Source of the DNA: Bolinopsis microptera
Taxonomy: Eukaryota > Ctenophora > Tentaculata > Lobata > Bolinopsidae
Direction of reading: 5' to 3'
DNA: 64,000 nucleotides
Assembly: GCF_026151205.1 (NCBI RefSeq)
Contig: NC_087084.1
Location: 3,008,845-3,072,844 of the forward strand
The number at the start of each line of letters is the position of its first letter. Position 1 is the stretch's first letter. A program made the translations under genes and the position numbers. The notes beneath the pieces were generated by a model that saw only the letters and a program-made list of their open reading frames with translations, searched no databases and was not told the origin of the DNA. Below are positions 4,376 to 59,175 of this stretch, in pieces.

Positions 4376-4583
4376 TTTGAACGTAATTCAATACTAAAGA
4401 TTAGTTTTTCATGAAGGTTTGTCCTACTTATTTATTTGTATCATTGTGACTCTTAACTTACCATTTTCCCTCAGTTGTAGCAAGAATAAGTGCACATGTG
4501 ATCTGTAATCAAGGTTTCCAGTACTGTTGTATTGGACTTGTCAGCATGTAAGATAGTTCCTGAAACTCTATCATATAATAGCT

Positions 4584-5768
4584 ATGGGTGAAGATGGCGA
4601 ACTTCCTTCAACCAGCAAAGAAGAAAATCTAGAGGCTTCAGAATCGATTGCATTGTATGAAATTTCCTTAGAAACTGTGGATGATGAAGATGAAGAAACT
4701 GACAGTATTCAATCCTTGAAACATGCAGCTAACAGGCTTTTGGGGGCAGATGATATTATTAAATCAGAAATTGTATCTAGCGCATTTACTTCAGAAATTG
4801 CAATTGACCAAACATGGGGTGAATGGATGCAGGAACTCCCTGGATCAACATGGATCAAAGTACGTACATTCGGAAAAGTCCAATGGAGATGGTCAAAAAA
4901 TTGTGTCCATTATGCTCATTTGCCAGAATGGTTAAAAGATAACAGATTTCTTCTCCGGTGCAACCGTCTACCAATTTACAGTTTTACTGGTTGTATGCTA
5001 AGTGCATTCAGAATCCACACTGAAACGGGTAACATCTGGACTCATCTCATTGGTAGCCTTCTGACAGTTGGATATTGTATTTATGCTTTTGCTTCTCGTT
5101 TACACAAGTTGCACTGGACTGAGCAGCTGGTCTATGCAGCATTCTTCCTTGCAGCCTCCCTGTGTATGGGATTCAGTTGTATTTTCCATGCTGTTATCAA
5201 TCATTCCCCGAAAGTTTTCAAGTTGTTTAGTCGTCTGGACTACTCTGGAATTTCTCTTCTTGTTATTGGAAGCTACATGCCTTGGTTGTACTACTCTTAC
5301 TTCTGCCATCCAACCATCTATGTTGTCTACACTGTTGTCACCTGTGTCATGGGTATATCAGGGATATTTGTTTCTCTTTGGGATGAGTTTGATAAGCCTA
5401 AATACCGAAATGTTAGGGCAGGTGTTTTTCTTACAATGGGTCTCTCAGCTGTAGTACCTGCTTTTCATTATGCAATTAAATTTGGCTGGTCTATTGCTCT
5501 AGATAGAGCGTCTTTAGGATGGATGATATTGATGGGCAGTCTGTATGTTTTTGGAACCATGCTGTACATGTTTCAAATCCCGGAAAGATGGTTTCCTGGA
5601 AAATTTGATATTTGGGGCCAAAGTCATCAAATGTTTCATATATTTGTTTTGGTTGCTGTGTTTGTTCATTACCATGGTATTTCTGTTTTAGAAGCGAATC
5701 ATACTGAGGATATTCTTAATAACCGAGTTTGTACAGATAATATTTTAAATACTACTACATTTGGTTGA
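4584..5768 (+). CDS. Adiponectin receptor-type PAQR seven-transmembrane protein, copy 1
   Basis: This is a single-exon 394-aa protein. An acidic N-terminal tail (about 1-110, cytosolic in the family) precedes the AdipoR signature LPEWLKDNRFLL (113-124) and FRIHTETGNIWTH (142-154), then about seven hydrophobic segments. The three zinc-binding histidines of AdipoR have counterparts at H202 (in CIFHAVINHS), H348 and H352 (in SHQMFH). Other conserved blocks are FSRLDYSGISLL, GSYMPWLYYS and IPERWFPGKFDIW. AdipoR1/2 proteins are membrane receptors with ceramidase-linked activity; function here is inferred from that similarity. The start is the first in-frame ATG. An intact copy with identical protein lies inverted at 12029-13213. 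Lack of introns could mean an ancient intron loss or a retrocopy that was then duplicated. Confidence 0.95.
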   Translation: MGEDGELPSTSKEENLEASESIALYEISLETVDDEDEETDSIQSLKHAANRLLGADDIIKSEIVSSAFTSEIAIDQTWGEWMQELPGSTWIKVRTFGKVQWRWSKNCVHYAHLPEWLKDNRFLLRCNRLPIYSFTGCMLSAFRIHTETGNIWTHLIGSLLTVGYCIYAFASRLHKLHWTEQLVYAAFFLAASLCMGFSCIFHAVINHSPKVFKLFSRLDYSGISLLVIGSYMPWLYYSYFCHPTIYVVYTVVTCVMGISGIFVSLWDEFDKPKYRNVRAGVFLTMGLSAVVPAFHYAIKFGWSIALDRASLGWMILMGSLYVFGTMLYMFQIPERWFPGKFDIWGQSHQMFHIFVLVAVFVHYHGISVLEANHTEDILNNRVCTDNILNTTTFG

Positions 5769-6507
5769 GATTGTACACAACAGTTAGCAGTATACACATA
5801 TGAGAAGTTTACTTTAGAAAAATGTGAAATCAATTGAATGTTGACCCCAAGATTTCAAATGATGAAAGGTTTCACATGCTGGCTTTTGCCGTTCCTCAGT
5901 TATGTTTCCTGCAAGCTCTTCATGAGACATTGTTTTAAGTTGGCGCATCCTTTCTGTACACCGCTAATATCTCATGCATTTAGATCTGACCCCATAGATT
6001 TTACTATGATTTAATAAGATATGCTTCTATTTTCTGCAACTGTAGTAACTTAATTTAGATGGTCTTGTATTGTGAAATTGTATAATTGATAATTATATTA
6101 TATATTATTATAATATATTATACTTGAAACCCGCTAGTCAAAATGCCGCTTTAAAATAAGTATGATGTTCCGATTTCTTCATATGGAGTATGGACCCACT
6201 GTGACCCGTCTACAATCTTTTTTAATTTATTCCCGATGACAACTAAGTTAAAAGTATTCCCTAGTTAAACTTTTTACTGCATCAAAAAATATCAATCACA
6301 ACCAAAGGTTTTGTGATGTATCTAATAGTGACTTTTCAACTCCATTTGCAAGCTGAAAATGTTGTCACCGGTAACTTTTTGACCAATTTATTTTCTGTGC
6401 CTTTGCCGGGCTGATTTCGTCAAGTTTAAAATAATAATATGAATATTTATATTATAATATTGAAGTGACAAATTTATTCTCTGGATGTGATGACTGTTCA
6501 TATATAT
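5769..6507. other. 3' flank of AdipoR copy 1
   Basis: The DNA is AT-rich with a run of AT dinucleotide-like sequence at 6084-6125. It is matched inverted at 11290-12028 with small indels and substitutions. No gene is visible. It probably contains the 3' UTR; no AATAAA close to the stop stands out. Confidence 0.5.
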
Positions 6508-8397
6508 GGACACGTTCATTTGAGTTTGAGGATATTGGTAAATATAAGTGACCCTATTAAAAGGCACAGTGTAGTTGACTTTGTCACACTATGAAATTAC
6601 TTAAACCCTTGATGGTTAGGATAATCGTCTCATCCTCCAGGCTAACTTTGTCACATAACGATATCTTAATCAGGTGATAAGATATCGCTTAAATACGGCA
6701 GGCACGGAAATGGTTACATTGTCACACTATAAACATGTGACGGAGTAAATATGGACCCCTTGCTGCCGTTTTTGACCAAATTTTTGAGTGTCCAGTTGAT
6801 TGGATGGGTACATATGACCATTACCTACATATTTGACGACTTTTTTCGTTAGATGGTGCATTCAGGTTTACTCTGTCACATATTAAAGAAAATATGTGAT
6901 GAATGTTTAGGGCACCCTGATAAGCAATGCTGAGTAGTGTAAGTTTATTTGATGGCCTGGAAGTGCTGGGAATTGTTATTATATCATATAGTCGTAAGGA
7001 ATTAAAACACAGAAGGCACAACCAAGCTTACTTTGTCACATAATCTTGATGATATCTGAACATGTGTGAAATTGAACAAATAATGATATACCAGCTTAAA
7101 CCCCTTATATTATACGTACTATGGATCAAACAACACTGCTAGTACCATGCACCAGTCACATAAATCATTATCAGGTGGTAATATGTTAACAGTGTCACAA
7201 TTAAACTACCGCTACATGGTCAAAAATAGGGTAATTTCGTCACAAAAAATTATTATAACTCTGTTAGCTCCTTGCTGGCAAAATAACTAGTTTATCGACA
7301 TTTTTTTGATGATAAAGTTACATAGTATTCTAATAGAGGTATAGTTCTTCAAAATAGGGGCAAGACATGTTTACTTTGTCACATCAGTTATTATAACAGT
7401 TAGGTAATCGTCATCACATTAACATATATTTTTTGTAGTTTGGATTGATTTATATAGGTAATAAAGCAGCATATGCTAATTTTTACACACTATCTTGAAA
7501 TTGTTGGGGCATGAAAAGTTAATTTTGTCACATTTTTAGTGACTTTGACAAATTTAACCTAAAATTGCTAAACTTAAGCTCTTGATGTTCTGGACAATAT
7601 TCTAATAGAGGTATAGAATATAGATCTTCAAAATAGGGGCAAGACATGTTTACTTTGTCACATCAGTTATTATAAGAGTTATTATAAGAGTTATTATAAG
7701 AGACTATTTCATTCTATAATCATTGTTTTTAATCTATTTACGATTTCGTATAATTTTTTTGTGACAATGTTAACATCAACTGACCTTAACTTGCATCAAC
7801 TACATTGTCATCATATAAAATTTTCCCGCCTTTCAAACCAAAATCAGATATATAAATAATTCGCCCAAAATTTTAAATTCCATATATTGTGACAGAATTA
7901 ACCTCATTTCCCAGTAACCGAGTGCCTGTATTAGCTAACTATTCAAAACAAAATATTTTAGGGCTATGATTGGTAGAGCAACCATCAAATAATGAGTTGA
8001 AAGGGTTTTTAGGACACCTCACAGTAGAATAGAGGTATGGTATCATGAGTGTGACAAAGTTACCCAAATATTGCCTTGTAACCGTTCGATCCGTGCCCAT
8101 TAACCAATGTTGTATCATAATTGTTAGATTCACCTAATTTACTATATTTCAGACCAAGGAATGATAATTAGACAACTGCAGTTAACTAAGTCACACAAAA
8201 TGTTACTTTTGAAACATTATAGTGCCTAACAACAATAGATTTTCTTTCTGAGCGGTGCATATGGGAGTATGGGTTACGTGGCTAATGTTCAGAACTTCTG
8301 AACGTGCTAGGTTAATAGATGTCAAAATTAAGCCACTATCGTCAAAAACGCTATTATTTTTGTTTACCAATATCCTCAAACTCAAATGAACGTGTCC
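6508..8397. mobile_element. E1: 1.89-kb non-coding TIR element packed with a 15-bp motif
   Basis: About 35-bp terminal inverted repeats begin GGACACGTTCATTTGAG (6508-6542; inverted at 8363-8397). The right arm of the duplication keeps the empty site (GTTCATATATATTC, read from about 11305 to 11290). Insertion duplicated part of the AT run, up to 8 bp, with the exact length ambiguous. No open frame resembles a transposase. Inside are at least 13 copies of a motif near GTTAACTTTGTCACA, for example at 6574, 6641, 6712, 7026, 7185, 7230, 7369, 7518 and 7648, and inverted at 7760, 7888 and 8050, then direct at 8181. A stretch around 7330-7396 is duplicated at 7601-7675. Termini match element E2 at 22217-24173. 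Confidence 0.85.
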
Positions 8398-8955
8398 ATA
8401 TATATTCTTTCTTAACAATGTTATATACGGCCCAAGCTGCACCTTTTGACATGGGAATTTGTGATTTAAGAGAAACTGTATTTAAAAAGTGATTTCTGCT
8501 TCTCCGGCAGCCCTTCCCGGTCAAGTCTTTGTTTTGAAGAAAATTCTGACAGCCTTCTAACAACCGGCGCGGCTGTTACGGTAACAGCCCTCTAATAGGC
8601 CTCTAACAGTTATTTTGGGGGGACAAATACTTAACAGCCGATGCTTACTTGTGTTTTGTTAAATGGCTATTAGCCGGTTAATAGCCTGCCGGCATTGCAC
8701 CTATTTGCATTCTCCTTTGCTTTAGTAAGCATAACGATTATGATGTCTAATTCTAATGCTATTGTATGCAATTTATTCAATTTCTGTCCTCTATTATATT
8801 TGTTTACCTCAATACAGAAATAAAGCATGATTTGCTTTATCTCTACGTCATGATGATTTATCATATTAGCCTGTCACATTTATAATACGTTATGTCCCAA
8901 ATATAAGTGCAGTAAACCCTTATTTACCGTAGAGTTTTTAAGAGAAGGAAAACGC
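8398..8955. other. Inner part of the left arm
   Basis: It is matched inverted at 10745-11290 and has no gene. It contains GGCTGTTACGGTAACAGCC, a perfect hairpin, near 8570. The innermost arm end is near TTTTTAAGAGAAGGAAA at 8934-8953. Confidence 0.6.
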
Positions 8956-12028: not shown

Positions 12029-13213
12029 TCAACCAAATGTAGTAGTATTTAAAATATTATCTGTACAAACTCGGTTATTAAGAATATCCTCAGTATGATT
12101 CGCTTCTAAAACAGAAATACCATGGTAATGAACAAACACAGCAACCAAAACAAATATATGAAACATTTGATGACTTTGGCCCCAAATATCAAATTTTCCA
12201 GGAAACCATCTTTCCGGGATTTGAAACATGTACAGCATGGTTCCAAAAACATACAGACTGCCCATCAATATCATCCATCCTAAAGACGCTCTATCTAGAG
12301 CAATAGACCAGCCAAATTTAATTGCATAATGAAAAGCAGGTACTACAGCTGAGAGACCCATTGTAAGAAAAACACCTGCCCTAACATTTCGGTATTTAGG
12401 CTTATCAAACTCATCCCAAAGAGACACAAATATCCCTGATATACCCATGACACAGGTGACAACAGTGTAGACAACATAGATGGTTGGATGGCAGAAGTAA
12501 GAGTAGTACAACCAAGGCATATAGCTTCCAATAACAAGAAGAGAAATTCCAGAGTAGTCCAGACGACTAAACAACTTGAAAACTTTCGGGGAATGATTGA
12601 TAACAGCATGGAAAATACAACTGAATCCCATACACAAGGAGGCTGCAAGGAAGAATGCTGCATAGACCAGCTGCTCAGTCCAGTGCAACTTGTGTAAACG
12701 AGAAGCAAAAGCATAAATACAATATCCAACTGTCAGAAGGCTACCAATGAGATGAGTCCAGATGTTACCCGTTTCAGTGTGGATTCTGAATGCACTTAGC
12801 ATACAACCAGTAAAACTGTAAATTGGTAGACGGTTGCACCGGAGAAGAAATCTGTTATCTTTTAACCATTCTGGCAAATGAGCATAATGGACACAGTTTT
12901 TTGACCATCTCCATTGGACTTTTCCGAATGTACGTACTTTGATCCATGTTGATCCAGGGAGTTCCTGCATCCATTCACCCCATGTTTGGTCAATTGCAAT
13001 TTCTGAAGTAAATGCGCTTGATACAATTTCTGATTTAATAATATCATCTGCCCCCAAAAGCCTGTTAGCTGCATGTTTCAAGGATTGAATACTGTCAGTT
13101 TCTTCATCTTCATCATCCACAGTTTCTAAGGAAATTTCATACAATGCAATCGATTCTGAAGCCTCTAGATTTTCTTCTTTGCTGGTTGAAGGAAGTTCGC
13201 CATCTTCACCCAT
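12029..13213 (-). CDS. Adiponectin receptor-type PAQR seven-transmembrane protein, copy 2
   Basis: The 394-aa protein is identical to that of 4584-5768. The four nucleotide differences I found are silent: Ser codon TCT/TCA, Asn AAT/AAC, Tyr TAC/TAT and Val GTT/GTG, at left-copy positions near 4785, 4904, 5274 and 5370. All zinc-site histidines (H202, H348, H352) and the AdipoR signature blocks are present. The two genes are transcribed towards each other across about 6.3 kb that includes the arm junction. Upstream flanks are also shared, so both may keep a promoter. Non-coding flanks differ more than the coding region, which suggests selection or conversion, provided the duplication is not an assembly join of two haplotypes. 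Confidence 0.95.
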   Translation of the reverse strand: MGEDGELPSTSKEENLEASESIALYEISLETVDDEDEETDSIQSLKHAANRLLGADDIIKSEIVSSAFTSEIAIDQTWGEWMQELPGSTWIKVRTFGKVQWRWSKNCVHYAHLPEWLKDNRFLLRCNRLPIYSFTGCMLSAFRIHTETGNIWTHLIGSLLTVGYCIYAFASRLHKLHWTEQLVYAAFFLAASLCMGFSCIFHAVINHSPKVFKLFSRLDYSGISLLVIGSYMPWLYYSYFCHPTIYVVYTVVTCVMGISGIFVSLWDEFDKPKYRNVRAGVFLTMGLSAVVPAFHYAIKFGWSIALDRASLGWMILMGSLYVFGTMLYMFQIPERWFPGKFDIWGQSHQMFHIFVLVAVFVHYHGISVLEANHTEDILNNRVCTDNILNTTTFG

Positions 13214-14167
13214 AGCTATATGATAGAGTTTCAGGAACTATCTTACATGCTGACAAGTCCAATACAACAGTACTGGAAACCTTGATTACAGATCACATGT
13301 GCACTTATTCTTGCTACAACTGAGGGAAAATGGTAAGTTAAGAGTCACAATGATACAAATAAATAAGTAGGACAAACCTTTATGAAAAAATAATCTTTAG
13401 TATTGAATTACGTTCAAAGAATTTATTCAGCTAAAGAATGATACAATATGATATACAATTGCTCATGATTTATGATTGTGCTCTGCCAATTGCATCACTT
13501 GATTTAATTTATTGTGTATATATATATATATTGTTTGAATGACCTTTACTATTAAAAAATGATACAATATGACAGTATTAGTAAGTCTGCATGGTTAGAT
13601 GGTAGATACGTGTCATAAAATCTTTTAATATTGCACTCTATGTTTGAAACGATATTCACATCTCATCTACTGATGTTAAAAATATCTGTACCATATTCTA
13701 CTGATTTCTCTTGGAGAATTTCTCTTTAGACTCTTAACTTGCGAACAAATTGAAGCAGCAAACTTTAGGCTAGAAACTTTATTGAATTGAAATAATCATT
13801 CCACGTAACAACGTCTTCTTCAGTTCTGTAATAAAATTGTTAAACATGTGTAAAAATTAACGACGGAAAGAAATTTAAAATAACATTAAAACAAAAACAG
13901 AGAAATAAAATTTACGAAATATGACCCAAAAATGTAATTGCAAAAAATGTCAAAACAACAAAAAATATACGACAAGAAGAAATGTAAGCTAATACAACTA
14001 AATACTGTACTACTCATGATACTAAACTAATTAGTAAACGTAAAACTGGTTGTTCAGAATTCACAGTTCATGTGTAAAAACTAATGATAAAATCAGCACT
14101 TAAGCAACGATAACTCGGTTGTCATGGTTACTATCCAAGATAGTCCTATCAATACATTATTTACTAG

Positions 14168-14992
14168 TTAAACATCGACTAAATATTTGTACAAATAACT
14201 CAACTCAGAACGATCATTCATTTCAGGACTTAATCTCAATATATACATCGCTTCTACAATCTTTCTACAAACAGTTTTACTCTGTAAATCAAGTAACTTA
14301 AAAGATAAAACTGGGGTTCGGTTAGGATGTAGAGATGCGTAGTGCTGTCCCACCCCATTCTCTGGATGTGCTCTAGGATTCCTAGCAGCCTGTCTGTGCT
14401 CCATCAGACGAGCATGGAGGCTTCTCTCAGTTTCCCCACAGTATCTCTTACCACATAACTCGCAAGTAACTAAGTAAATAGCTCCTTTTGTTGAGCATGT
14501 TGTTCCTGTGAGTCTAGGGCAGATCTCACAATTGTTAGGGTTACCAAGGTCACAAGTCTTCTTATCCAGTGGACGAGAGCGGCAGAAGATGTCCTGTAAC
14601 TTCTTACCAGGTGTAAAAATAACTCTGATGGGGAGTTTGTTAGATTTGATGTAGTTGCGAATCTTATTACAAATTGTTCCAGAGATGAATGGTAAGGTGA
14701 GTGGGACAGAGTCAGGTGTGGTTTGACGTCTTCTCCTAGTCCTCCTGTTCCTTGCGTTATGACTCAGAGGTTGGTGTCCATTTTTCTTTAAGAGATCATC
14801 GATGATATTAACTGAATGATCGAGTTCCTGGGGTCCTGAGGAAGCAATGGTGGCATTACGGTAGAAGTTCTTCTTACACTCCTCCTTCACTGAGTCCGGG
14901 TGGTGTGACTTCTGGTGTAATGTTATCCCCTTGTTCTGGGTTTTCCTGTAGAATCTGTGGTGCACTTTTCCTACCTCTAAGTCATAACGCAA
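14168..14992 (-). pseudogene. Penelope-like element ORF, 3' part: RT tail plus GIY-YIG endonuclease (left unit)
   Basis: The open frame is 274 aa. The N-terminal stretch HHRFYRKTQNKG..HQKSHHPDSVKEECKK..NGH matches the end of Penelope-type reverse transcriptases. A basic linker NRRTRRRRQTT and PIRVIFTPGKKLQD follow, then a Cys-rich block (CDLGNPNNCEICPRLTGTTC) and the GIY-YIG core AIYLVTCELCGKRYCGETER with SLHARLMEHR. The element is truncated at its 5' side; the RT catalytic palm is missing, so it cannot move alone. It differs from the right unit at one residue (TVCRK against TVRRK) in the shared part. Confidence 0.88.
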
Positions 14993-15576
14993 GGAACAGG
15001 AGGACTAGGAGAAGACGTCAAACCACACCTGACTCTGTCCCACTCACCTTACCATTCATCTCTGGAACAATTTGTAATAAGATTCGCAACTACATCAAAT
15101 CTAACAAACTCCCCATCAGAGTTATTTTTACACCTGGTAAGAAGTTACAGGACATCTTCTGCCGCTCTCGTCCACTGGATAAGAAGACTTGTGACCTTGG
15201 TAACCCTAACAATTGTGAGATCTGCCCTAGACTCACAGGAACAACATGCTCAACAAAAGGAGCTATTTACTTAGTTACTTGCGAGTTATGTGGTAAGAGA
15301 TACTGTGGGGAAACTGAGAGAAGCCTCCATGCTCGTCTGATGGAGCACAGACAGGCTGCTAGGAATCCTAGAGCACATCCAGAGAATGGGGTTGGACAGC
15401 ACTACGCATCTCTACATCCTAACCGAACCCCAGTTTTATCTTTTAAGTTACTTGATTTACAGAGTAAAACTGTTCGTAGAAAGATTGTAGAAGCGATGTA
15501 TATATTGAGATTAAGTCCTGAAATGAATGATCGTTCTGAGTTGAGTTATTTGTACAAATATTTAGTCGATGTTTAA
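14980..15576 (+). pseudogene. Penelope-like element GIY-YIG endonuclease (right unit, shorter)
   Basis: The element-derived part starts at 14980 with PLSHNARNRR; upstream residues of the open frame (from 14905) read the opposite strand of the left unit and are not meaningful. It contains the linker, Cys cluster, the YLVTCELCGKRYCGETER core and the C-terminal region ending SELSYLYKYLVDV. The RT portion is completely absent. Its 3' tail (15577-16037) contains a GAACTGAAGAAGACG segment shared, inverted, with the left unit. Confidence 0.88.
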
Positions 15577-21639: not shown

Positions 21640-22216
21640 TTCATAAATTTGGAACATGGGCACATCACAGTATTGGCCGTATTTGAGTGCTGGGAAGGCT
21701 CAGTTCGGATTTCTAAGATGGATATAGCCGTAAGCTAGGCCTAGGAACCATAAAAAGTCGTATAAAACTACCCATGGAATGACCAGAAATGAACGAAAAT
21801 GAACATTCTTCTCAAAGTGCTCAGAATGGTTTAAAATGGGTCGGAAAGTGTTTATATTAGTCCTAGGACCACTCAAACCAAGTTTGAGAATCATTGCATG
21901 TCTAGAACCGATGTTACCAATGTTCCAAAATGTCCCAATTTTGGCACAATAATCCTCCTGAGAATCCAGATTTTTGGAACATGGGCACATCGAAGTATTG
22001 GCTGTATTTAAGTGCTGGGAAGCCTCAATTCGGTTTTCTAAGATGGATGTAGGTAAAAACTAGGCCTAAGAGCCATCAAAACTCAAATAACATTACCCAG
22101 GTTCATGGAATGTATGGAAAATGAACAAAAATGAAAATAGTAGTTGAGATGGTGGAAACATTTGATACAATTTTGGAAACATGCTTTTACAGCCGTATTT
22201 ATGCTTGTACTGACTT
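21640..22216. repeat. Diverged tandem repeats (part 1), roughly 330-460-bp units
   Basis: GGAACATGGGCACATC with its downstream block (TATTGGCCGTATTTGAGTGC, CTAAGATGGAT, AGGCCTA) occurs at 21652 and again at 21977. Related blocks (GGTTCATGGAATGA, GTTGAGATGGTGGAAAC) reappear at 22097, 24257 and 24720 beyond E2. The units are old and diverged. Confidence 0.7.
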
Positions 22217-24173
22217 GGACACGTTCATAAAAAGGTGGCACTAGAGATTGATTTTTCACTGCCAAAATTGTGTGAAGCATTTTAAAATACTTGGATCTCA
22301 AGGAGTATGCTATGAAAGTTAACCAAATTTTAATGTGGTCCAAAAAGATTCAAATGTCACATAATAAAGTCATTCATCTCTTTATATCTGTTAATTGTGC
22401 AGATATGAGCCAGAAATCACAAAATATTCATTTCTTGCACCTCTAATGATGAATTTACATTCTGTGAGTGTGTCCTGCTTCTCAATGTGATTATTGAACC
22501 TTTTTGAGATAGCTGAGTGTTAAAAGTGCAAAGAATCACCGGTTAAATGTGGAGTTACGATGCAATTATCACATACAGGGTTAATTCTGACTAAGTATTT
22601 TAGAATGATGAATGTGATATGAATATCAACGGAATGATTGTAACAATGAACTCTATCAATCACAATTATATCATGCTAACTAATATTTAGAGAATTTAGA
22701 TGGTTAAAAGTGCCATAATGAGTCAAAAATCACATAAATGAGCATGTATTGAAATGATGCTGTATCAGGGGAATGTACACTGTCCATTTGAACACTGTCC
22801 ATTAGTACTCCGATGAAAAAGCGATGAATGTCGATTTGCCGTGATTCTAGCTTTGTGTGTTATTGTGTGATTTCAATGCACGGCAATGAAGGGACTCAGG
22901 TACCACGATCTGGCAGACAAACATGTCTGAACAGACATAGCGAGTCAGATCTGGTTCAGGAAATTTTATCGTTAAAGAGACATTCATATTTCATATGAAT
23001 CAATACTCAGGTTTCTAATTTTGGACTCGCCCGGGGTTTGATTATGATACTTTGAGGAATGACATTTGATTTATAAGTTGATTTCAAATCCCCTATGGGT
23101 ACCAGAAATACTGGTTTCACAACAACAACATCACTTTTTGGCTCTATATCAGGTTGGTATTCATAGTAAATCTGCAGTAATTTGTTGTGACACTGCACTT
23201 GTTTATGGTCATGGAGAAGTTCGTTATTAGAGTAATAGTGGAATCAATAATCACAAAACACTGATTTTAAACTGATTAAACTAGGCAAGTACTTTTACTA
23301 CTCAAGCCATGATAATTTTGTCTCCATACTGTGACAAATGAATCAATCAGTTACGTATAATACTTAATTGAATTTTTGAAATGTGATTATCGATTCATTA
23401 CCTTTCTTTTCAAAATGTCATTACAACTTGAACATTACATATGATTCAATTGTCATACTTTAAAGAAAATTACATAGTTGGTAGCCAGATTTGTGTGATT
23501 TTTGAATCATTTAACCACCCAGATCAAAAATTATCGCTCAAAGGCCTTCAATATGGTATAAGCTTAGACATGGATTCAAAAATCACATAATAAGAACCAT
23601 AGAATGGATATATGTTGTCATATTGTGCACTTAATTTAAGGCTTACTATAGTGAGACTTAATAGCGCACCAATAACGAAAATGTGATTTTTGAATCATAT
23701 TAACTGGTTTTAATACTATTTAATACTATTTTGTACCCTAAAAAATGATAGAAAGCCAATAAAAACGTAAGATGATTCAATAATCACTGCTCAAAATAGG
23801 CTCATTTCCAATGTTTAAGTTGTGATTTTTGAATCATTTTGGCACCAATAACAATTTCAGATAAGACATTTTATTCCTTACATGCATTATAGTCACCATA
23901 TCAATTTTGGCGTCTTTGTGAATAGTACTTTTCAGATTATCTAGTGTTGATTCATCTTGCATTTCTAATTGTGTGATTTTTGAATCATTGGCACACAAAT
24001 AACGATAACTCCTGTGATATAAGCACTACAGACTCCGTGATTTCAGGATCATGAAATTTAATCGAATTTCTAAAGGTATAGATAGATATATCAACCAACA
24101 AAGAGCAATGACCATTTTTAAAACTCATTTAAAAAAAATCAATCTCTAGTGCCACCTTTTTTTGAACGTGTCC
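22217..24173. mobile_element. E2: 1.96-kb non-coding TIR element packed with a different 15-bp motif
   Basis: The terminal inverted repeat of about 41 bp starts GGACACGTTCATAAAAAGG (22217; the inverted partner ends at 24173) with one mismatch. It is flanked by ACTT at 22213-22216 and 24174-24177. The uninterrupted unit at 24480-24510 and 24930-24970 supports a 4-bp duplication. Inside are at least 11 copies of a motif near GATTCAAAAATCACA, in both orientations: 22347, 22720, 23241, 23573 and 23774 direct; 22486, 23382, 23494, 23682, 23821 and 23972 inverted. No transposase frame exists. The first 12 terminal bases are identical to E1. Confidence 0.85.
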
Positions 24174-24177
24174 ACTT

Positions 24178-40215: not shown

Positions 40216-40390
40216 GATACATTTAATGTATATAATACCATGTACATTTTGTGTACATTTTGTGTAAATTGTGTACATGATGTGCATTTTATGTACATTT
40301 AGTGTACATGGCGTACATTTAGTGTACACTATTTTACTTATATCTAACTGAAACGACTCCAAGCCAACTAATAATGTGTTATGTTAGATT
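40216..40390. repeat. Degenerate TGTACATTT-type repeats
   Basis: TGTACATTTTGTGTACATTT-like units run at 40245-40330. They form a transition between the 20-bp and 12-bp arrays. Confidence 0.6.
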
Positions 40391-40900
40391 GCCTAGTGTA
40401 GTGCTTAGTGTAGTGCCTAGTGTAGTGACTAGTGTAGTGCCTAGTGTAGTGCATAGTGTAGTGCCTAGTGTAGTGCCTAGTGTAGTGCCTAGTGTAGTGC
40501 CTAGTGTAGTGCCTAGTGTAGTGCATAGTGTAGTGCCTAGTGTAGTGCCTAGTGTAGTGCCTAGTGTAGTGCATAGTGTAGTGCCTAGTGTAGTGCCTAG
40601 TGTAGTGCCTAGTGTAGTGCCTAGTGTAGTGCCTAGTGTAGTGCCTAGTGTAGTGCATAGTGTAGTGCCTAGTGTAGTGCCTAGTGTAGTGCCTAGTGTA
40701 GTGCCTAGTGTAATGCCTAGTGTAGTGCCTAGTGTAGTGCTTAGTGTAATGCCTAGTGTAGTGCCAAGTGTAGTGCCTAGTGTAGTGCCTAGTGTAGTGC
40801 CTAGTGTAGTGCTTAGTGTAATGCCTAGTGTAGTGCCTAGTGTAGTGCCTAGTGTAGTGCCAAGTGTAGTGCCAAGTGTAGTGCCTAGTGTAGTGCCTAG
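40391..40900. repeat. 12-bp satellite CCTAGTGTAGTG, about 42 copies
   Basis: The unit length is a multiple of three, so it yields long spurious frames on both strands (VVPS repeats on +, HYTR repeats on -). Variants CATAGTGTAGTG, CTTAGTGTAATG and CCAAGTGTAGTG recur in a higher-order pattern. Confidence 0.95.
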
Positions 40901-41343
40901 ACGTGTAGTGGAACTTATACCGCGACCGTTATTTTAAATGTCAAGTTTAAATGAGTATGTGGTTGCAACACGACGTGGTAATGAATATTGCCCGACAAGT
41001 AACCTTATAAGGAGGTGTATTGGCAAATGTTACGTATTGGAGCCTGGAGAAATACTTAGAAATTAGGGAGTTTTCCAGAAATTTCTCAATTTAGGCTACA
41101 AGTTGAATTTGGTGACGATCTTCCTTCCTTGGTATTATCAACGTGTATTATTTACTGAACTACCGATCTTCACCGAAGTTTCTGTGTGAAGAACATTTGC
41201 TGAAGTTGCGAGGGTTTAATTAATAAAAAAGGTGTATACATCTAAAGCCAATTACACTTAAAAACACATCAATAAAATGACGTATTTAATTACATTATTA
41301 TAATTAATAATTATCTAATTATCTAATTATCTAATTATTTCAG

Positions 41344-46470: not shown

Positions 46471-47239
46471 GTGAGTATATTGTTTATCTGATAAGAGGAG
46501 CTACATTTCTGCTATTTTCTGACAAATGTGCTTAGTAAGACCATTTTTGAAATTCTGAATTATTTAACTTAAGTTTCATTTTTGGGCCAAGAAGTATCTC
46601 TGAATACCATCAGAAACCACCTTTTGAAACCTCTTAAAGTGCCACAATTTGTCATAAATGTGTCAAAACTCAAAAGTTAAGCAATTTTGTCATAAAACGG
46701 CAGATTTCTACCTATAGGGCGAGGGAACTCAGGGAATGTGAAATATTCTTTACTTAGTACTATGTCTAACGGTTCATAGATTTTACAACTGTTAAACATA
46801 GGTCACACAGGTAGGACGTAGGTATATTCCTCCGTAAACGGTCAACACCCGAATTAACTTTAATTCTACGTTAACATTTTTCTTCGCCTTCACCGGTCCA
46901 GTATCTCTACTATAATTCAGAGAATTATTTCTGCTGTCTGTACGACCGCCCACGTGCAAATTAGATGAAAAACAGGAATTTAGGTAACAACCAAAAGGTT
47001 CCATAGCAACGGTGTTTTAATGCACACATGCACGTGCAAACTGCAAAGATTGTTTTAACGTCATTTTGATCGGTTTTGTGGTAATTACGTTGTGTTTAAA
47101 GTGTTTTAAATTTAAATCGGCTGTATCTTCGGTTGGGATGGATATTTTTTGATGCGATTAAAACTTTCTTTCGAAGAATACTACTAGCTTCGTCCCTGTT
47201 ACCACGGGCTTTCTAGTATGGTATAATACCTAGCAATGG
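46471..47239. other. Intron DNA
   Basis: No gene or element is recognised between microexon c and the 16-bp satellite. Confidence 0.4.
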
Positions 47240-48611
47240 ATTATCCCACCAGGACATAATCCCACCAGGACATAATCCCACAAGGACATAATCCCACCAG
47301 GACATAATTCCACCAGGACATAATCCCACCAAGACATAATCCCACCAGGACATAATTCCACCAGGACATAATTCCACCAGGACATAATCCCACCATGACA
47401 CAATCCCACCAGGACATAATCCAACCAGGATATAATCCAACCAGGACACAATCCCACCAGGACATAATCCCACCAGGACATAATCCCACCAGGACACATT
47501 TCCACCAGGACATAATCCCACCAGGACATAATTCCACCAGGACATAATTCCACCAGGACATAATTCCACCAGGACATAATTCCACCAGGACATAATTTTA
47601 CCAGGACATAATCCCACCAGGACATAATCCCACCAGGACATAATCCCACCAGGACATAATTCCACCAGGACATAATTCCACCAGGACATAATCCCACCAG
47701 GACATAATCCCACCAGGACATAATCCCACCAGGACATAATCCCACCAGGACATAATCCCACCAGGACATAATCCCACCAGGGCATAATCCCACCAGGACA
47801 TAATCCCACCAGGAGATAATCCAACCAGGATATAATCCAACCAGGACATAATCCCACCAGGATATAATCCCACCAGGACATAATCCCACCAGGACATAAT
47901 CCCACCAGGACATATTCCCACCAGGACATAATCCCACCAGGACATAATCCCACCAGGACATAATCCCACCAGGACATAATCCCACCAGGACATAATCCCA
48001 CCAGGACATAATCTCACCAGGACATAATCCCACCAGGACATAATCCCACCAGGACATAATCCCACCAGGACATAATTCCACCAGGACATAATTCCACCAG
48101 GACATAATTCCACCAGGACATAATCCCACCAGGACATAATCCCACCATGACATAATTCCACCAGGGAATAATCCCACCATGACATAATCCCACCAGGACA
48201 TAATCCCACCATGACATAATTTCACCAGGACATAATCCCACCAGGACATAATCGAATCCCACCAGGACATAATCCCACCAGGACATAATCCCACCAGGAC
48301 ATAATCCCACCAGGACATAATCCCACCAGGTCTAGGTCATAATCCCACCAGGACATAATCCCACCAGGACATAATCCCACCAGGACATAATCCCACCAGA
48401 TCATAATCCCACCAGGACATAATCCCACCAGGACATAATCCCACCAGGACATAATCCCACCAGGACATAATTCCACCAGGACATAATTCCACCATGACAT
48501 AATCCCACCAGGACATAATTCCACCAGGATATAATCCCACAAGTACATAATCCCACCAGGACATAATCCCACCAGGACATAATCCCACCAGGACATAATC
48601 CCACCAGGACG
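47240..48611. repeat. 16-bp satellite CATAATCCCACCAGGA, about 85 copies
   Basis: Because 16 is not a multiple of three, every minus-strand frame reads the same 16-residue cycle (MSWWDYVLVGLCPGGI) without stops, giving several overlapping frames up to 362 aa. Variants (ATTCC, ATGACAT, an inserted TCTAGGT near 48330) are scattered. The array lies in the presumed intron of the coiled-coil gene. Confidence 0.95.
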
Positions 48612-49350
48612 TATTGTTTCTCTATTGGTCGTGTCCGGGTAGTTGATCCAGCCCTGGATATCATCTTCAATTGAACTTCAAGACTAAAGCTTCTGTTATG
48701 TTTCATTTGATGATAAATAGCAATGACTCCATTGTATACCCTTGTCGGTTAATGCTGCGACAACTTCGACTAGTAATGAAATCTATGCCCCTGTCTGTAT
48801 TATATAATCTGTCTTAGGTGTCGTATTACTTCAAAAGACCTGATGACGAAATATTTATGTACCACCTTATCAAATTACACCGTGTTCAAGGATCTTTCTA
48901 GAAAATCATGGAAAAAATAAAATGTTGCGGTTGTGCCTACTACTTTTTAACTTCCTTCATGGCCGATTAATTTTCTGATATATTGAGGTTGCGGTTATAA
49001 CTGTTACTCCATGGTCGGGTAAAGCTGGTATGTTATAGGGCTTGTCGATTGTTCTACTTAGTACTTACATTAGATGAATTTAAACGGTACTCTCTGTTCC
49101 AATGCACGCTCCTGCGTCCTTTAAAACACGCGGCGCTGAAACTTTGATGCGTCACAGGATTTTCGTGTCATCAATTATAGAGCGCGCATATCGTGCCGCG
49201 CACTACACGACTACTGGATTATTTTGTCTCTAAGACCCTAAACTACTAGCTAGAGTGACCTAGACGGCACGTAATCGATTTAACGAGATGTCGTCTAGCC
49301 AGCACCCTAGACCGCGACACGAGATGCAGTCTTTGGAGAACAACACACAA
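48612..49350. other. Unassigned intron DNA upstream of the LINE
   Basis: No gene is visible. The stretch 49100-49330 has more CG than its neighbours and could be a remnant of the LINE 5' side or another element. Confidence 0.35.
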
Positions 49351-58362: not shown

Positions 58363-58412
58363 TTAACCTATTCAATGAAACAAGAAATTTTTTTAATGAA
58401 ACCAGAAATTTA

Positions 58413-59175
58413 ATTTTAGCACATTTTACAGAATAAAAAGATGTAAAACAATCCATAAAATATAATGCCCAATTGGTGTATGTCTTTTTGTCCTTGACTG
58501 CTAGTTTGGTTTTGGTTAACGGGTGATACTCGTAAAATATCTGTTCCATATATTGGACCGTCGACGAGTCCAACTCCGCGTGCGTCCTGGTAGGTTGTAA
58601 ACCTACAAGGTTTTGGAAGGACAGGTAACTAACGGGGCAAGGAATGCGTGTGCCTCAAAGCTTTTGCACACACCGAAACACTAGTTCAGTTAAGTTATTA
58701 TTGTCGCTTTTTACAGTACATGATTGAGTGACCATCCGGATTCTGTTTGTGCTACTTTTGATCTAACTATTATCGATGCCAAGCGACTAGTCTTGTACAT
58801 TAATCATTTTGTTAGCTCCCTCATTTCTATTTTTAGAAGTTCATTATCCCAAGTATCATAGAGGAGCTAAACTAATTATTAGTAGATGAAAGTAACCAAT
58901 CACAATTTTTCTTGTACATGAGCTATTGAATCTCTAGCAAGGCATTTGTTAATACCTGTGTGTCAATTAAACAAATAATCAATTAAACAAATAATCAAAG
59001 TTTTAGCACATTTTACAGCATAAGATTTAAACAAATGAAAACATATAATGCTCTTAGTGGTAAATGGCCGTTTGTTCTGAGCTGTATGATTTTTTGATAA
59101 TCAACTAGCGGGGCAAGGAATGTACTGGCTGGTAGCTTTTGTACACACCAGAACGCTAGTCTGGTTGATTAGTGA
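58413..59175. repeat. Diverged direct duplication, about 200-bp units
   Basis: AGCACATTTTACAG, ATATAATGC, CGGGGCAAGGAATG, AGCTTTTG.ACACACC and CTAGT.... GTT occur in the same order at 58418-58700 and 58998-59175. The first copy contains the family E insertion. Confidence 0.6.
58517..58604 (+). mobile_element. MITE family E, one-ended copy
   Basis: It has GGTTAACGGGTGATACTCG through GGTAGGTTGTAAACCTACAA but lacks the second terminal repeat. It lies within the first copy of a diverged direct repeat (58413-58700 and 58998-59175). Confidence 0.7.

Follow-up and report, generated by a model that had tools for sequence, protein, structure and literature searches.

Introduction

Why should DNA elements that end in the same few nucleotides carry, in their interiors, arrays of a short word that is constant in one part and different from element to element in the other, and what would read such a word? 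The question is raised by two elements, E1 and E2, lying in a 64-kb stretch of ctenophore DNA, hereafter the window. The original prediction, made from the window alone, took them for members of a family that retains a common terminus while diversifying an internal binding site, and rightly gave them nearly equal lengths (1890 and 1957 bp).

Elsewhere in the window, two nearly identical adiponectin-receptor-like ORFs (relatives of PF03006) lie in opposite orientation at 4557-5765 (+) and 12032-13237 (-), and the ORFs at 14812-15573 (+) and 14171-15004 (-) also share sequence; given these paired ORFs in opposite orientation, the region looks like an inverted duplication. The nearest relatives of the adiponectin-receptor ORF stand at 61-86% and named insects and molluscs at 42-54%, among the best 120 of 788. 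Minisatellites at 40323-40934 and 47216-48677 are open in several frames and translate as SVVPSVV and PGGIMSWWDYVLVGLC repeats.

Results

E2 is a non-autonomous, apparently non-coding DNA transposon

E2 is a non-autonomous DNA transposon, apparently non-coding, with inverted ends and a target duplication (Table 1), the left tip reading GGACACGTTCAT and the right tip GGACACGTTCAA. At up to one mismatch, GGACACGTTCA has four matches in the window, all exact, where 0.68 are expected; they lie at 22217 (+) and 24173 (-) for E2 and at 6508 and 8397 for E1. No ORF of at least 130 aa between stops was found inside E1 or E2 of the window. Genome-wide, 21 loci with E2 sequence were read, and the target duplication is perfect in all 15 that were scored by a script pattern. 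Nine copies of the long class are 98.6-99.8% identical to the window copy; the short class, of about 1600 bp, is without the internal block. Long copies among those read contain nested insertions. At two loci (C10:10707385-10712000 and C11:1656200-1661000) E2 ends recur every 3-6 kb in the same orientation, and these are tandem duplications carrying E2 plus neighbouring DNA.

Read in the TGTGA-first orientation, the E2 word is TGTGATTTTTGAATC, 15 bp. Allowing three mismatches, GATTCAAAAATCACA matches 18 times in the 64 kb as against 5.99 expected, the largest count in 100 shuffles being 12. Thirteen of the 18 matches, five of them exact, fall within E2 in both orientations, where at least 11 copies had been predicted; the chance of 13 of 18 matches falling within 1957 of 64000 bp is 1.5e-16.

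Table 1. Positions in the window of E2, its parts and word sites, and of the sister element E1. For word sites the strand is that of TGTGA.
Feature	Position	Strand	Evidence or remark
E2, non-autonomous DNA transposon, long class, 1957 bp	22217..24173	+	inverted ends and 4-bp duplication; 21 loci with E2 sequence
Left target-site duplication ACTT	22213..22216	.	read from window
Right target-site duplication ACTT	24174..24177	.	read from window
E2 left inverted end, 40 bp	22217..22256	+	self-match 97.5% over 40 bp in short-class copy; window letters
E2 right inverted end, 40 bp	24134..24173	-	same self-match; window letters
Internal block, in long E2 class, missing from short class	22782..23129	.	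0 word sites at <=3 mismatches
Word site 1	22347..22361	-	<=3 mismatches
Word site 2	22407..22421	-	<=3 mismatches
Word site 3	22486..22500	+	<=3 mismatches
Word site 4	22559..22573	-	<=3 mismatches
Word site 5	22720..22734	-	<=3 mismatches
Word site 6	23241..23255	-	<=3 mismatches
Word site 7	23382..23396	+	<=3 mismatches
Word site 8	23494..23508	+	exact
Word site 9	23573..23587	-	exact
Word site 10	23682..23696	+	exact
Word site 11	23774..23788	-	<=3 mismatches
Word site 12	23821..23835	+	exact
Word site 13	23972..23986	+	exact
E1, sister family element, 1890 bp	6508..8397	+	ATAT duplication at 6504-6507 and 8398-8401
E1 left inverted end, 35 bp	6508..6542	+	window letters
E1 right inverted end, 35 bp	8363..8397	-	window letters
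E1 array, 16 sites of TGTGACAAAGTWAAC	6574..8195	.	<=3 mismatches

Conservation of the word within E2 is weakly significant, and we count this against a binding-site explanation. Fixed differences between window E2 and the short class fall on 0 of 195 word positions and 33 of 1413 others (P = 0.03). Single short-class copies, which are not independent of one another, differ at 42 of 2130 word positions against 505 of 15393 others (P = 7e-4), and 30 of these 42 differences sit at positions 6 and 13. In long-class copies word and other positions do not differ significantly (P = 0.15).

Four families share the tip

The prediction that several families would share a tip and carry internal words, constant in one part and family-specific in another, is borne out: the genome holds four, E1, E1b, E2 and E3, all with GGACACGTTCAT as their 12-bp tip and all with a composite word. 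The tip occurs at 568 + 577 places in the 264.65-Mb genome, compared with 4 + 22 for a reversed control. Of these 1145 places the first 100 were surveyed, all of them lying on C1, no further along than 19.7 Mb; they make up roughly one in ten of the E1 ends in the genome. From 35 fetched loci with facing ends and the two window elements we obtained a sample of 37, comprising 27 E1, 8 E1b, one E3 (L011) and one E2 (window). The target duplication is exactly 4 bp in 29 of the 35 elements with distinct flanks and 3 or 5 bp in none, ATAT being the commonest (17); shifting the comparison by 1 to 4 bases gave 1, 5, 0 and 2 of 37.

E2 had been said to end as E1 does, and this holds for the outer 11-12 bp, the remainder of the inverted ends being different. 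The interiors of E1 and E2 give no blastn match at E 1e-10, and those of E1, E2 and E3 are mutually unalignable; tip and site layout are what they have in common. The tip of E1b reads GGACACGTTCATTGAAG. E3 has four paired copies in the genome; the two that were read (L011 and L071) are 99% identical outside an extra block. Among other tips, GGACACGTTCAV occurs at 119 places (67 in the control), E2 right ends included, and GGACACGTTCATTM at 14 (2 in the control), while GGACATGTTCAT, at 91 places (32 in the control), showed by eye no family of close pairs.

In three E1b copies (L030, L038 and L089) the end (GGACACGTTCATGTTGAAG) is repeated internally, at a distance of about 670 bp from an outer one, and there are 78 such 13-mers in the genome; GGACACGTTCATS occurs at 78 places versus 9 in the control, the three read being these inner copies. 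Four E1 copies on C1 (L048, L080, L083 and L086) contain a common insert about 310 bp from one end, part of which matches 58372-58696 of the window; they are an E1 lineage that multiplied with a passenger.

A composite site with a constant and a family-specific part

Read TGTGA-first, the 15-bp words are TGTGACAAAGTWAAC in E1, TGTGACRAARTTTAC in E1b, TGTGATTTTTGAATC in E2 and TGTGATTWTTGTGYY in E3. E1 and E2 had been described as sharing a TCACA end and differing in the other half; the constant TGTGA stands, and the family-specific part is better described as certain positions within 6-15. A C-rich box at 25-26 completes the composite site. C occupies position 25 in 13 of 16 E1, 16 of 20 E1b, 8 of 13 E2 and 10 of 15 E3 sites, and this is the best C column of 29 in E1, E1b and E2 and the second, after 26, in E3. 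Since the sites of E1 and E1b are homologous, the box is found in three independent families, not four.

At up to three mismatches, each element holds many sites of its own word (16 in window E1, 19 in L009, 20 in L010 and 23 in L039; 13 in window E2, 13 in L058 and 15 in L071), where 0.2-1.3 per element are expected from 40 simulated sequences each. The words of E1 and E1b match each other's elements and those of E2 and E3 do so in part; between these two groups there are 0 or 1 matches. As predicted, each sub-family has its own variable part: words of the own-family type are present in all 35 E1 and E1b elements examined, the fewest being three in the 984-bp copy L019, so that no member devoid of an array came to light among them, and the E2 and E3 copies have theirs. 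Exact words occur genome-wide 960 times for E1, 833 for E1b, 168 for E2 (as a 16-mer) and 36 for E3, against 0, 0, 1 and 12 in reversed controls. All the E2 words listed, at least 100 of the 168, have an end of this type no more than 2.2 kb away. The E3 word is rare and not clean: 20 of its 36 exact occurrences are in the four E3 copies, 6 are clustered on C13 and 10 are elsewhere. This evidence is thinner than for the other families, and we count it against our main explanation. The cluster, at C13:15554239-15554583, comprises six occurrences of the E3 word TGTGATTATTGTGCT spaced by multiples of 30 bp, with none of the listed E3 ends close by.

Could such arrays be the remains of tandem repeats? 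Tandem duplication did help to build them: there are units of about 150 bp in E1, and a 198-bp stretch of E3 is repeated at 73%. Nonetheless, with the word used to align the sites within an element, identity between sites is 0.80 in E1, 0.81 in E1b, 0.83 in E2 and 0.77 in E3 within the word, and 0.29-0.35 in the 45-bp flanks on either side, where chance gives 0.28-0.29. With flanks near chance and words at about 0.8, tandem decay alone, which had been put forward as the explanation to be feared, accounts for part of the origin of the copies and not for the conservation of the word. Spacing in E3 is regular. Taking the 13 sites with at most two mismatches (two sites with three were excluded), 10 of 12 gaps measure 154 or 308 bp to within 14 bp, a result reached by none of 20000 random placements with the period left free.

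The sites of E1 and E1b differ by a switch at position 13

E1 and E1b diverge by about 21% and can be aligned over most of their length. Homologous sites were picked by TGTGAC in the E1 copy alone, and 40 columns were tested. Position 13 differs at 16 of 18 sites between L009 and L010 (P = 2e-9) and at 14 of 16 between window E1 and L039 (P = 2e-8). No other column of the 40 reaches P 1e-5, the next being positions 7 and 12 (11 of 18 sites each and 8 of 16 each), and positions 1-6 are changed in 0-2 sites each. Each of 30 pairs formed from 5 of the 27 E1 and 6 of the 8 E1b copies has its largest number of changes at position 13, at from 10 of 12 sites to all sites. Among distinct 27-mers built on TGTGAC, 121 of 134 from E1 have A at position 13, and 47 of 50 from E1b have T or C there.

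The change does not depend on the regular repeats. Fourteen of 19 sites in the L009/L010 comparison lie outside the regular-repeat block, and 12 of these 14 are changed at position 13 (P = 6e-7); at the two that are unchanged the E1b core is not TGTGAC. An effect of mutational context at position 13 was ruled out by a control: of the A's in TWAAC outside the words, 4 among 15 and 3 among 14 were altered (P = 4e-4 and 6e-4 in comparison with the words), and given that these A's are rarely changed, local mutation bias does not account for position 13. CpG decay was rejected as well: it might account for position 7, but it leaves the A/T difference at 13 unexplained. E1 and E1b thus differ by a site-by-site switch in the word while TGTGAC stays, which suggests, as far as sequence can tell, that a word-reading protein switched its preference during evolution.

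A further sequence, L104 (C11:1798431-1798860), is 25-26% from E1 and 33-34% from E1b; it is an older relative of both and a candidate outgroup for polarising the switch, though the number of its sites is too small to settle the direction. Among the matches listed in a literature search, in which most subscription journals were outside coverage, we found no report of such a switch; a search with the tip sequence returned, among the matches listed, none on transposons by title.

Orientation of the sites

TGTGA lies mostly on the minus strand in the left arm and on the plus strand in the right arm, so that its side of the site mostly faces the centre. Pooled over three mutually unalignable families (window E1, short-class E2 L058 and E3 L071), the counts are 19:3 on the left and 7:15 on the right (P = 5e-4, neighbouring sites not being independent). 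In seven single elements the polarity is weak (P = 0.11, 0.32, 0.06, 0.003, 0.27, 0.10 and 0.04), and this counts against an explanation by end pairing.

Search for an autonomous partner

The elements read, namely long pairs on C1, long E2 copies and 40 further ends, yielded no gene that could be identified as encoding a transposase or a DNA-binding protein. Insertions with ORFs are present in L032, L040, L043, L053, L059 and L069/L070, and we take these ORFs, by their look, to encode LINE proteins. An insertion beside TTAA in L035 has two ORFs with no Pfam match above cut-off. Many of the forty short stretches at further ends are E1, E1b or E2 copies, and some look like chance matches. Ten ends (L077, L079, L082, L085, L090, L091, L092, L094, L098 and L105) depart from the known families after 0-263 bp; four of them (L079, L082, L085 and L094) have ORFs of at least 70 aa, the longest of 116 aa. 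Since the ends surveyed are the first 100 of 1145 and all come from C1, no further along than 19.7 Mb, the genome may well contain an autonomous copy; as the elements read yielded neither transposase nor binding protein, the mechanism set out below is one that we infer.

Discussion

Conserved, mostly oriented and family-specific sites that have changed in concert would be the mark of a sequence-specific DNA-binding protein, and the near absence of exact E1, E1b and E2 words from other places favours a protein of the element family over a host factor. We therefore lean, with moderate confidence, towards the view that the words are bound by a protein of TnpA or VANC type, belonging to the element family, with which they have co-evolved; this degree of confidence is meant for the whole explanation, that is a shared tip and transposase, an arm-coating protein, end pairing, and site change driven by specificity. 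E1, E1b, E2 and E3 are families of non-autonomous cut-and-paste DNA transposons, whose outer 12 bp would be recognised by a shared or closely related transposase and whose internal arrays would be composite protein-binding sites of at least 26 bp. With the TGTGA side towards the centre in most sites, each end would have its own arm. A protein encoded by an autonomous partner would bind the words, coat the arms and, in the service of transposition, help to pair the ends, as TnpA does on En/Spm. If the protein region that recognises the central positions of the site changed its specificity, selection among copies would alter the sites one by one, until each family answered to its own protein. 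That the sites extend over the whole element and not over its ends only is counted against this explanation.

A more elaborate version can be put forward tentatively, namely that the elements carry a modular address code, in which a fixed tip serves catalysis and the internal sites have two fixed boxes and a variable middle, the latter recognised by a modular protein that the element encodes. Families would part as the code is rewritten in situ at almost all sites, leaving each lineage privately addressed, and the arrays may serve anti-silencing and transposition alike.

Might anti-silencing be the whole of their function? An element-encoded, VANC-like protein would then bind words along the element and remove host silencing marks, word divergence limiting the effect to its own family or aiding escape from silencing. 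We regard this as rather unlikely, and keep it alive on account of the element-wide coverage and the 154-bp rhythm of E3, a near-nucleosomal spacing that would suit a role in chromatin. Element-wide, family-specific arrays that change between related families are also what is described for VANC targets (PMC5735166, PMC10398659). The opposite polarity of the two arms, however, is not needed for anti-silencing and makes us prefer a role in end pairing; moreover, no VANC-like gene was found in the elements read, and overall methylation in the related ctenophore Mnemiopsis is low (6.8%; PMC12221973).

It is improbable that the words serve as sites for host transcription or chromatin factors, the elements having acquired sites for different ones. 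TGTGA and the CAAAG of E1 do resemble common host sites, with nothing specific about the likeness, but exact E1, E1b and E2 words are almost confined to the elements or absent from the reversed control. The ctenophore loop protein CTEP was rejected as reader of the words, its motif being GC-rich and unlike them (PMC12221973). Least probable of all are neutral arrays, in which tandem duplication and local homogenisation by gene conversion spread the words and made the family differences: the repeat units of E1 and E3 would fit, but not the near-chance flanks, the change at position 13 outside regular repeats, or the identical composite layout in elements of unrelated sequence.

How does the preferred reading, an element-family protein on co-evolved sites, compare with known systems? 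In CACTA elements TnpA-like proteins act on subterminal repeats, and co-evolution has been suggested from differences between families (PMC2613891). The likeness to En/Spm-type elements described there lies in repeated, family-specific short words near both ends and in conserved tips (PMC2613891). In contrast to CACTA, the tips here are GGACACGTTCAT and not CACTA or CACTG, the duplication is of 4 bp instead of 3 bp, the words span the whole element, and change is seen at homologous single sites; neither a tnp2 transposase nor a TnpA-like protein was identified in the elements read. On VANDAL elements, VANC targets are described as evolving and spreading through tandem repeats, and family-specific words stand in the non-coding DNA of related elements with differing specificity, as in ours (PMC5735166, PMC10398659). 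Unlike VANDAL, dispersed sites have here changed in place, with a 4-bp duplication, in an animal host and with no VANC-like gene found. MULE duplications are 8 to 11 bp long. In hAT elements such as Hermes, BED domains of the transposase reportedly bind repeated end sequences (PMC10368747). Several binding domains on repeated end words would make for a likeness. hAT duplications measure 8 bp, and we know of no element-wide arrays of a composite site in that group. Sola elements make 4-bp duplications, like those seen here; no transposase was identified in the elements read. The word arrays resemble the subterminal repeats of CACTA and the VANC motifs of VANDAL, and in tip and duplication length our elements fit neither.

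Co-evolution of a protein with repeated sites has been proposed in plants, for CACTA and VANDAL, where turnover of the arrays makes it difficult to follow at individual sites. As E1 and E1b can be aligned, the change between them is readable base by base at many sites, and the pair would be a natural record of a switch in DNA-binding specificity in a ctenophore. If the address-code reading is true, both codes of one split would still be alignable, in an animal. The switch also sets an exact test, namely whether one residue or domain of the protein accounts for A as against T at position 13.
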